Positions 39,853 to 62,926 of a DNA stretch of 64,000 bases are shown piece after piece; the stretch's first letter is position 1; every line of letters begins with the position of its first letter. The DNA lies in the NCBI GenBank assembly GCA_002794785.1, contig NBBA01000003.1, positions 682,001-746,000 on the forward strand, written 5' to 3'. Made by a program: the position numbers and the translations under genes. This DNA is from Coniferiporia sulphurascens (Eukaryota > Basidiomycota > Agaricomycetes > Hymenochaetales > Hymenochaetaceae). The notes below the pieces were generated by a model. The model searched no databases and was not told the DNA's origin. It worked only from the letters and a program-made list of their open reading frames with translations.

Positions 39853-39991
39853 CAGTTGGACAAGATACCCTTTCCTCAATTCAAGTTTTAGTACCAGATA
39901 TCAAATGATAGAAGTCCCTTTTATCGCGAAGGTAAATATACCGCAAAGAATCAGTAAAGAAATTCACGACAAAAGAAAGAAAGAAAAATAC

Positions 39992-40073
39992 GACGCCAGC
40001 AGGATTCGAACCTGCGCCCTCGAAGAGGAGCAGCTTTCTAAACTGCCGCAGTAACCACTTTGCTATAGCGCCT
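39992..40073 (-). tRNA. tRNA-Ser(AGA): tRNA-Ser (anticodon AGA), minus-strand copy
   Basis: Reverse complement folds as a class II tRNA: acceptor GGCGCTA/TGGCGTC, short D stem, anticodon stem GCAGT/GCTGC with loop TTAGAAA (anticodon AGA), long variable arm CCTC-TTC-GAGG, T arm GCAGG/CCTGC, and G discriminator as in eukaryotic Ser tRNAs. A box (TAGCAAAGTGG) and B box (GGTTCGAATCC) are intact; a T run follows the 3' end on the minus strand. No intron. About 82 nt; the left-hand end could be off by one base. Partner of the divergent copy at 40556. Confidence 0.95.
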
Positions 40074-40555: not shown

Positions 40556-40637
40556 GGCGCTATAGCAAAGTGGTTACTGCGGCAGTTTAGAAAGCTGCTC
40601 CTCTTCGAGGGCGCAGGTTCGAATCCTGCTGGCGTCG
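40556..40637 (+). tRNA. tRNA-Ser(AGA): tRNA-Ser (anticodon AGA), plus-strand copy
   Basis: 82 nt, the same sequence and fold as the minus-strand copy about 480 bases upstream: class II tRNA with long variable arm, loop TTAGAAA and discriminator G. A and B boxes are intact, and a TTTTT pol III terminator lies at 40643-40647. No intron and no encoded CCA, as expected in eukaryotes. Confidence 0.96.
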
Positions 40638-41036
40638 CTAACTTTTTGACCTGCACCACTTCGAATGCTTAATTAATTTACCATATATCCAGTACTTCAA
40701 GCAAGTCCGATGTTGCGTGGAAGACCGTGGAAAACGGGGACTTAAACATGCGCTCGGATGCGCGGCTCTCTGGTGATTGTTTTATCCGTTTCCCAAAGCT
40801 GCGATCGCTGTATTCATATTCCTTGATTAGAATCAGCCGGACGTATCATGTGTTGGGTGTTTTTCCATTTACAAACAGTTGCATTCCGATACGGAGGCCG
40901 TTCACCGAGGACTGGCATAGCTACATAAATGGCATATGCTCTCTTACCCTCCTTCCGTCTCATCCCCACCTCGACAGTCCACAGCGCTCTAGACATCTTT
41001 GCAGGAGAACGCACCTTGAAAGAAAAGGCAGCAGCT
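40638..41036. other. Spacer upstream of the dioxygenase gene
   Basis: About 400 bases, presumably the dioxygenase promoter. An open frame in phase with the dioxygenase start runs upstream of 41037, but the conserved domain begins well after that Met, so I do not extend the gene. Confidence 0.45.
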
Positions 41037-60222: not shown

Positions 60223-60443
60223 GAAAGGCCTAATTAGGTTTTCTTTATATTTAAAAAAAAAAAAAAGGGATTAAGAGAATTTAGTAAAGAAAGCTGGGAT
60301 GTTTTTAAGTGGATTGATCTTTTGGGTTGCGAGCTTGCGTTGCCTTTGATGAATGCCTATCGTCATCGGATATAAGGGGGTGACCGGGCCTCCGTAAACA
60401 GCCACGCGAAGTGCCGTTGTTCTGTTAAGCGAAGTCTCGCCAA
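60223..60443. other. Muskelin 3' flank
   Basis: AT-rich 3' flank with an A run near 60252-60265, probably part of the muskelin 3' UTR, ending at the left target-site duplication of the inserted element. Confidence 0.45.
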
Positions 60444-60455
60444 GCCATCTTGTAG

Positions 60456-60457
<2 letters not shown>

Positions 60458-60494
<37 letters not shown>
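60458..60494 (-). repeat. Poly(A) tail of the inserted element (37 T on plus strand)
   Basis: An uninterrupted run of 37 T directly after the left target-site duplication; on the minus strand it is a 3' poly(A) tail. Confidence 0.95.
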
Positions 60495-60500
<6 letters not shown>

Positions 60501-60642
60501 GCATTTGTATACCGCTACATTACAGAGTAAAAGACACAGATGTGAGACCATCTGAAGTGTCGTGCCAGAGGAGATTAACAAGGTATAAAGTGTCTGGTTT
60601 TAAGGCTTAGGAAAAGGTATGAGGTTTTGTTGTCGGAGGTAT

Positions 60643-61245
60643 CTAAATGGTTTTGTCAGGGGGGATAAGAATCGGAAGAGCAAATTGTGAAGGGGGAGGT
60701 GGCGGTTTTATGGATTCTATGATGACTAATACTGATTGTGAAAGATGGGAAAAACTACTGGATTTTTTATGTTGTGCATGTGGGCATGGTTTGAATTGTT
60801 TTATGTCCGATATTTGTGACTCTGATAGTGGTGACGTGACAGCGCTTGGAGCGACATGTGTGTGTGAGGCTATGGGCAGGTTGCCATGAGGTGTGAAGGT
60901 GTCAGCGCTTGGAGCAGCAGGTGTGCGTGAGGCTAGGGCCAGGTTGCCATGAGGTGTGGAGTTGACTGCAAATTGTAGGAGGATTGATGTTAAGTCTATG
61001 CATGGGCCATATTGCCTGAGGTGTTCTCGGTAGAGGAAGATATGTCGTGAATTGTGTGGTTGCCCACTAATGCTGATGACCTGTAGTTTGTACTGGCATA
61101 TGGCCCAGTCTAGTATGTGCTGGTTGTCGTTAACGAGGTTGAAGGGTTCATATGTGGTGTCGGTTTCGAAGTTTGGCACCGGGAGGTGAAGGAATAGAAG
61201 GGGGCATGGGGAAATGGGGGAAAGGGGGAGTGGAATGGTGAACAA
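60643..61245 (-). pseudogene. Long open frame inside the inserted element, no start codon
   Basis: Sense-oriented to the poly(A) tail, this frame is open for about 200 codons (further upstream to a stop near 61300) but contains no Met codon at all, so it cannot encode a normal protein as it stands. The translation is not simple low-complexity: blocks such as LVNDNQHILDWAICQYKLQV and HIFLYREHLRQYGPCIDL look protein-like. It contains a 21-residue unit beginning TPHGNL that is repeated once. I do not recognise a family. About 150 bases separate its stop from the tail, like a 3' UTR. Confidence 0.45.
60841..60962. repeat. 63-bp direct tandem repeat, two copies
   Basis: Two units beginning AGCGCTTGGAGC at 60841 and 60904 and both containing GGTTGCCATGAGGTGTG. 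The period is 63 bases, exactly 21 codons, so it keeps the minus-strand frame of the inserted element. Confidence 0.85.
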
Positions 61246-61564
61246 GGCCGTAAAACAGCTCGACGGATGTCTACTGTGAGTGAGGACTGGTGTGGGTGGT
61301 TAACCCAGGGAAATTAGGGGTGGTGCGAGTCGGTTTGCGCTGGGTGAGATGATGGTGGTTAGAGGTCAAGGGGTTGCTGGCCATCTTGTAGTCACCAACT
61401 GGCAACATGATACTTAGCACGATGGGCGGCTGGACACGGCGTCAACACGGACTCCGAACCATGAAGCACCCGACTTTCCGCCTATCCCTCCGTCCGCCCT
61501 TCCTTCAGTCTGTAAATCGACGACATCGACGACTGATCAAAGGAAGTCTGCGGCTCAGCTCTCC

Positions 61565-62926
61565 ATGAAAACTTTCTTCGCGGATTCGCGTGCTTCCCGC
61601 GTTTCACGCGTCCTCCTGCTCTCAGCGACCTTTTTCTTGGGTTTGTCGAGGCTGGTAGAGCCTGTACAGGCGAAGTCGGTCAACGTCACGATAGACGATG
61701 CCAGCGGGCAGGTCCATTTCTCGGATTCAGCTGTAGAAACAAAATACTGGAATCATACGAGCGAGGCAGTCCGATGTTATAACAATACCGAGTCCTTCAC
61801 ATCTGCTGTCGGCGCAGCGGCATCTTTCCAGTTCGATGGTATGTAACTGCAGTCATGCGTATTGTATTTTGTCCACGTTATTTTGACGGGGCGTTACTGA
61901 CTGGTGTTGCCATTTTTCGGATTTTAGGTACGGGGGTCTATGTGCTTGGCAGCGACTCCCGTTTCTCGTGGCCGTTCTTCGTGACGCTCGACGGTTCGCA
62001 GACGGGCCCGTTCGTCGGAAATAATTCGGCAAATAACCTCAACCTCGTGCCCATCTGGAATGTGACGAACTTGACGCAGGAGACGCCCCATTTAATCGTG
62101 ATAACCACTGCGGCGGTGGACAATCCAGTCGACGGTCTGAGTTATAATTTCGTCCTGGACGGATTCATGTATGTGCCAGTGGTTCTGTTTTTCTACGATG
62201 TTGCAATTGATCTCATGGGATTTGTCATATAGAGTTACCCAAGAGGTGGCCGCATCAACGACGACGAGCGCATCGGGAACTTCATCCGCGTCTACGTCCG
62301 CGTCAAACACCCCAAGTCCAACTGCCGTCTCTTCGCATTCGACAGATGTCGGTGCCATTGTTGGAGGAGTGGTTGGAGGTGTAATAGGGATGGCCCTCAT
62401 CGTGCTAGTCATTTTTCTGTGCAATCGACGGAGATCGCACAGGCGAGAGAAAGAGGCTCTCGACATGATGGCGGAATCGGACAAGCCAGGGAGGATCGTA
62501 CCTTTCACGTCTGTCGAGCACGAATTCGACCCGTACGTCGACGATGAGACTCGCCAGCAACAAGTGGTGATGGGCCTAAATTCAGAGATGGATATGTCCA
62601 AAGGCCGCAAGAAGGGTGTGTCCGCTCTTCCGAACGACACGTTCACGCCCAACGCGTCGGGCTCTCACGTAGGTTCTGAGGCGCATGGCCCAGCTAGTGG
62701 ATCGGCGTCGCCTTTGCTTGGTGTCGCCGCACAGCCGCAAGACCCGGCGGTCCTTCAGGAAGTGAACGTGCTCCGCGCAGAGATCGCGCGGATGCACATG
62801 ATCAATGCGGCTGTAGAGTCGCAGAATGGGGATGACTTCCTCAATGCTATCCCCCCTCCGGATTACGAGACATCGAGCGCCATGCAACTCGCCCACGATG
62901 ATGCGATTCGATCTGGTGCGTCTTAG
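61565..62926 (+). CDS. Single-pass membrane protein with signal peptide and PPxY cytosolic tail
   Basis: Three exons: 61565-61838, 61928-62168, 62233-62926; 1209 nt, 402 residues. A basic start followed by a hydrophobic stretch (VLLLSATFFLGLSRLV) is a signal peptide. The ectodomain (about 40-170) has several N-glycosylation sequons (NVT, NHT, NNT, NNS, NLT) and a strand-rich look. A Ser/Thr-rich stalk follows, then one transmembrane helix at about 211-235 (GAIVGGVVGGVIGMALIVLV) with NRRRSHRR as stop-transfer. The cytosolic tail of about 165 residues ends near PPPDYE, a PPxY motif able to bind WW domains. The layout recalls fungal wall-stress sensors and related surface proteins, but no family can be named. 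Its promoter lies just beyond the inserted retroposed element. Confidence 0.8.

Follow-up and report, generated by a model that had tools for sequence, protein, structure and literature searches.

HAL1 (half-L1) elements of mammals are non-autonomous derivatives of a LINE that have one open reading frame (ORF) and keep ORF1 of the LINE. Short non-autonomous elements are found in trypanosomatids, where, according to PMC4748587, RIME and NARTc are truncated, short and non-coding versions of their partner LINEs, and where the Pr77 hallmark, the 5' signature of these elements, is an internal promoter for RNA polymerase II (Pol II). PMC6022647 describes a fungal case, the Eg-R1 SINE of barley powdery mildew, which has the ROPIP1 frame of 74 amino acids at its 5' end. 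The titles and abstract openings that surfaced in our literature search included no element of the kind reported here (a weak negative, with Repbase outside its scope), and the whole word "SINE", checked in the singular, is absent from the Laccaria paper PMC3411680.

The insert described here lies in a 64-kb stretch of Coniferiporia sulphurascens DNA (64,000 nucleotides; the window). It is very probably one copy of a Pol II-type non-autonomous retroposon, mobilised by a LINE, with both ends of LINE type and a foreign, open-frame middle; directly seen are the ends shared with a LINE, the near-fixed termini, the tails, the duplications, the unrelated middle and the open frame. Like RIME and NARTc (partners ingi and L1Tc), it is short and non-autonomous and has a 5' signature in common with a LINE; unlike them, it is not LINE-derived and non-coding throughout, since the LINE lacks its middle, which has an open frame, and its promoter is putative. 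Like Eg-R1 with ROPIP1 in its published description, it is a non-autonomous retroposon of a fungus and contains a reading frame; unlike ROPIP1 as described there, its orphan frame gives no sign of an effector role.

The sequence-only reading had proposed an insertion with an exact 14-bp target-site duplication and a 37-nt poly(A) tail, and a check of the window bore this out. The 922-bp insert (60458 to 61379; all element features are on the minus strand) is bracketed by identical copies of the 14-mer GCCATCTTGTAGTC, at 61380 to 61393 beside the element's 5' end and at 60444 to 60457 beside its 3' end, and these two (starts 60444 and 61380) are the only occurrences of the 14-mer in the window. 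The 37-nt T run of the plus strand at 60458 to 60494 is a poly(A) tail in the minus-strand sense, its last position possibly belonging to the body. The minus strand thus reads duplication, body (886 nt), poly(A), duplication. The only other A or T run of at least 12 nt in the window is one of 14 A at 60253 to 60266, which sits just 3' of the stop codon of the upstream frame. The element is oriented away from a plus-strand frame with its ATG at 61565, and the duplication ends 171 bp upstream of that ATG. Elsewhere in the window, two tRNA-Ser (AGA) genes form an inverted pair, at 39991 to 40072 (minus strand) and 40556 to 40638 (plus strand), with about 0.5 kb between them.

The same reading had suggested searching the genome with the insert body, and we searched the genome from which the window comes (39,347,566 bases in 31 contigs). 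The DNA search with the insert gave at least 64 matches, merged by eye into at least 40 loci (the best 40 of 175 candidates), and the 3' part and the 5' part, each used as a query, likewise gave lower bounds (the best 40 of 124 and 40 of 114 candidates, respectively). The reading frame is present at 60 loci and as one 20-residue fragment (tblastn, 76 of 76 candidates scored, counted by eye). At 57 of these 61 frame loci a single match spans at least 150 of 191 residues, without an internal stop in 52 of the 57. The 47 frame loci that were fetched all proved to be element copies; the remaining 14 each adjoin a head or tail motif among the motif matches listed.

Forty short copies were examined together with their flanks (the window copy and 38 further loci, one of them with two copies). 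They were chosen by match length, so that full-length copies are favoured and truncated ones possibly under-represented. They fall into two subfamilies: in the 34 A copies the first base is at most 12 bases from a common start, in the six B copies at most one base from theirs, and an A-rich tail terminates all 40. Exact duplications of 12 to 16 bp flank 38 of the 40 according to a script requiring an exact match of at least 9 bases; the two that it misses, L040 and L043, have imperfect duplications visible by eye. The first base of the duplication is a purine in 46 of 47 cases, these 38 and nine LINE copies taken together. Copies of the body elsewhere thus stop at the same point with their own, different duplications, so the signature in the window is not a chance arrangement, and the earlier proposals of LINE-type retroposition and of a multi-copy non-LTR family are both upheld. 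The proposed youth holds only in part: among the 44 other copies in the alignment, the one closest to the window copy still has 26 differences in 875 sites, although some copy pairs are almost identical (L032 and L033 differ at 1 of 818 sites), so that the family was recently active. Locus L023 (G000:C10:1243455-1245577) holds one A and one B copy, inserted head to head, with about 0.27 kb between the two start boxes.

A 26-nt start box near the 5' end, CCTTGACCTYTRACCACCAYCATCTC (61346 to 61371), is common to otherwise different heads and was found at 475 places in the genome with at most three mismatches, and a 25-nt tail motif at 110 places under the same threshold; the reversed patterns were found at none. 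Among the roughly 100 places listed for each motif, matches to reverse transcriptase sit in intervals of about 6.6 kb bounded by a head place and a tail place. These delimit a candidate partner, a 6.65-kb LINE with two ORFs whose ORF2 has endonuclease and reverse transcriptase, and all nine of its copies compared have tails of their own and, by the same script, exact duplications of 12 to 16 bp. The first 182 to 195 nt or so of the LINE match the short element at 79% to 82% identity in 9/9 copies (about 187 nt in the window copy, 61193 to 61379, including the start box), and the last 134 to 150 nt or so match at 83% to 89% in 9/9 copies (60494 to 60627, 89% identical to LINE copy L057 in a match that takes in the tail). 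In the nine copies, the matches are confined to these two ends. By its sequence, this LINE is likely to be the partner of the short element; the case for this pairing is the shared ends, and direct parentage is not implied, because the ends have diverged by 11% to 21% from the nine copies. Hitchhikers that have both ends of a LINE indicate what the copying machinery recognises.

In L057, ORF1 extends over 832 codons between stops and has clustered cysteines, with a Pfam zinc knuckle at an E-value of 0.88 only. ORF2 matches the Pfam families RVT_1 (E-value 1.3e-27) and an endonuclease domain (6.8e-17), both above cut-offs, and has a sub-threshold match to RNase H (0.013). The LINE is presumably of the fungal Tad/Deceiver type, and like such LINEs it has two ORFs, an endonuclease, a reverse transcriptase and an RNase H-like match. 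The closest named public proteins are from Coniferiporia weirii (44% to 48% identity). Around other reverse transcriptase matches, the start box was found in none of eight loci (L047 to L054), which are about 3.5 to 3.8 kb long and probably stop short of the 5' ends. One further locus (L081, G000:C9:119637) has a start box that departs from the motif at one position; the sequence after it gave no blastn match to the set of LINEs and hitchhikers, and the locus is possibly another LINE lineage that shares the start box.

Between the LINE-like ends lies a middle of about 0.55 kb with an open frame of about 180 codons. In the window copy, the frame is open from stop to stop over 218 codons (60643 to 61299) and, as throughout subfamily A, contains no in-frame ATG; a GTG at 61177 to 61179 lies within one base of the ATG of LINE ORF1 in a loose alignment. 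The part that begins at this GTG (178 codons and a stop, 60643 to 61179) was used for tests of constraint. It includes a tandem duplication that keeps the frame, about 63 bp or 21 codons long (60836 to 60964), identified by self-match and indel counts and found in some copies only. Eight of the 40 copies were dropped ahead of the tests, leaving 32 with a clean frame, of which L039 was put in no group. The tests are custom shuffles and not a codon model on a tree, and the pairwise tests are not independent of each other.

Pairwise Nei-Gojobori ratios range from 0.12 to 0.72 among 12 copies chosen from the 32. In a shuffle that keeps the types of base change, P was below 0.05 in 10 of 11 pairs, the exception being L012 and L032 (0.23). 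A second shuffle, which also keeps CpG and CpA context, was applied to seven groups, each represented by its majority sequence and together containing 31 of the 32 copies. In the frame itself, B has a synonymous excess against all six A groups (P from 0 to 0.0175); for A2 against B, 26 of 56 changes are synonymous where 14.1 are expected, a value reached in 0 of 2000 shuffles. Between A groups, only 5 of 15 pairs have P below 0.05 (A2-A3b 0.002, A1-A3b 0.0035, A1-A2 0.0185, A2-A3 0.0205 and A4-A3b 0.021), and pairs without an excess include A1-A4 (0.46), A3-A3c (0.78), A1-A3c (0.31), A3b-A3c (0.32) and A4-A3c (0.50). In neither of the other two frames does P drop below 0.15 for any of the 21 pairs. 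Variants shared among 45 copies (n = 176) comprise 72 synonymous, 102 non-synonymous and 2 stop changes, against 47.4, 120.3 and 8.3 expected, and singletons show a similar tendency (19 synonymous, with 12.3 expected). Synonymous changes between copies and their group, followed by the expected number, are 27 and 18.3 in A1, 1 and 1.4 in A2, 1 and 0.9 in A4, 11 and 10.9 in A3, 1 and 0.4 in A3b, 5 and 4.6 in A3c, and 21 and 17.7 in B. Of 17 indels in the ORF, scored against copy L024 with subfamily B excluded, 11 are multiples of three and six are frame-breaking single bases; one of 63 bp is found in seven copies, probably as one event, and the big length changes (63, 33 and 72 bp) all preserve the frame.

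We take this to indicate moderate constraint on the frame in the source lineage, which would still not be proof of translation. The odds that the source lineage, at the least, translates it seem to us about even. The strongest alternative keeps the same LINE hitchhiker and makes the frame a passenger that is never, or no longer, translated and is open because copies descend from a few recent sources. It would accommodate the missing ATG of subfamily A, the ten A-A pairs without a significant excess, the lack of an excess since the group formed in A3 and B, and a fold prediction from 31 natural sequences that gave no confident structure (mean pLDDT 36.1). It would also accommodate L029 and L030, which have a common in-frame TGA at codon 45 and yet lie at different insertion sites, so that, barring two independent origins of the mutation, the frame may be dispensable in cis. 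However, a passenger does not readily explain the synonymous excess of A2 against B or of A2 against A3b, the surplus of synonymous changes and the scarcity of stops among shared variants, or the in-frame length changes, and we consider this alternative a serious one that falls somewhat short of an even chance. If the frame is translated, the element would be a non-autonomous retroposon with its own protein, and the view of such elements as pure RNA parasites becomes testable.

We compared the middle with the LINE and with public sequences. It has no match in DNA comparisons with the nine LINE copies and, against the proteins of two LINE copies, is similar in the leader only. Profile comparison of the frame with LINE ORF1 (five sequences) and ORF2 (four sequences) gave probabilities of 0.2 and 0.3 out of 100. 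Unlike the frame of HAL1, therefore, the orphan frame resembles neither LINE ORF, and its similarity to ORF1 is limited to the leader. An internally deleted LINE of the RIME kind, with its ends kept, its middle gone and nothing foreign gained, would account for both LINE-type ends, but a middle that matches neither the DNA of the nine LINE copies nor the ORF profiles makes it improbable.

The B frame has no match in Pfam, so no endonuclease or reverse transcriptase domain, and 31 frames gave four single-member Pfam matches only (best E-value 0.079). Among 5.8 billion proteins, a single-sequence search found no homologue with an E-value of at most 10 (43 candidates), and neither did a search with the 31-sequence alignment (2774 candidates); this miss is meaningful because the same database contains proteins of such fungi. 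A PDB sequence match to a TGF-beta receptor type 3 chain (E-value 0.029) is weak and was judged to be due to chance. The frame has no relatives elsewhere in its own genome by tblastn, the best non-element matches having E-values of 0.19 and 0.31. This bears on a processed retrocopy of a host mRNA, which the sequence-only reading had offered as an alternative and which would likewise have a poly(A) tail, duplications and an open frame. Every significant genome match, however, is an element copy or adjoins an element end, and LINE-type ends flank the frame on both sides, so we regard a retrocopy as very improbable.

A classical Pol III SINE would also be short and non-autonomous with a LINE-type tail, but we discount it almost entirely: a Pol III A box is absent from the element, the best B box has two mismatches and was equalled in 496 of 1000 base shuffles, a TTTT occurs 124 nt into the sense strand, and a search of small-RNA families gave nothing over threshold (a single match, SCARNA7, on the opposite strand with 13.1 bits against the 65 needed). 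That no known SINE head is visible, as noted earlier from the letters, therefore stands, and the head is the 5' end of a LINE. HDV-like ribozyme families gave no match with an E-value of at most 1. The near-fixed start and the internal start box fit an internal Pol II promoter, as we infer from their arrangement; the start box also served as a search key, which builds in part of its conservation, and it was already common to A and B before the motif search. In the mechanism that we propose for the LINE-mobilised retroposon, Pol II would initiate at the first bases of the LINE-type 5' end, under a putative internal promoter that takes in the start box. The polyadenylated RNA would carry the LINE 3' end and be accepted by the LINE endonuclease-reverse transcriptase, and target-primed reverse transcription would then give an insertion with a 12 to 16-bp duplication. 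Mobilisation by the enzyme of this particular LINE is our inference from the shared ends.

Subfamily B (six loci), which has an in-frame ATG, shares with the 5' part of A only the start box (23 of 26 positions), followed by a different leader of about 235 nt, and then has the body and tail of A. A search with the B leader gave 16 matches at 15 elements (two are pieces of L086): the six B copies and nine others, which divide by body into family D (L066, L078, L084, L085 and L086) and family E (L079, L083, L087 and L088). The bodies of D and E differ from those of A and B, and no long shared frame was seen in them. Over 45 to 76 nt, the LINE 3' end is matched by L066, L078, L083, L084 and L085; L079 and L087 show no more than a 14-nt tail motif and a resemblance to L083, and the sequence examined for L086 and L088, which are broken by another insertion, stops short of their ends. 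Duplications of 13 to 15 bp flank L066, L084, L085 and L087, and the sequences of L078, L079 and L083 were taken without upstream flank.

The ATG of B aligns with an ATG in the leader of family D, with the join immediately 3' of it, so that by alignment the ATG of B is one that arrived with the leader of another short family. Since the B leader is common to D and E elements, the hitchhiker families have traded heads and bodies with each other, a process for which template switching or recombination is the probable route. Several short families that combine one start box and related 3' ends with different bodies amount to a natural experiment that can show which parts are required. A more far-reaching reading, which we put forward tentatively and consider unlikely as a whole, is that the element is a LINE parasite with its own protein: the product of the frame would help its own RNA, in cis or in trans, to seize the LINE particle or would compete with ORF1, and the element would swap 5' leaders with other hitchhiker families, B gaining a start codon in this way. 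The insertions that interrupt the D and E copies are themselves related, each about 0.54 to 0.56 kb long (L086:162-716, L086:1251-1808 and L088:982-1518), and contain parts that match each other in either orientation, which would suit a small DNA transposon.
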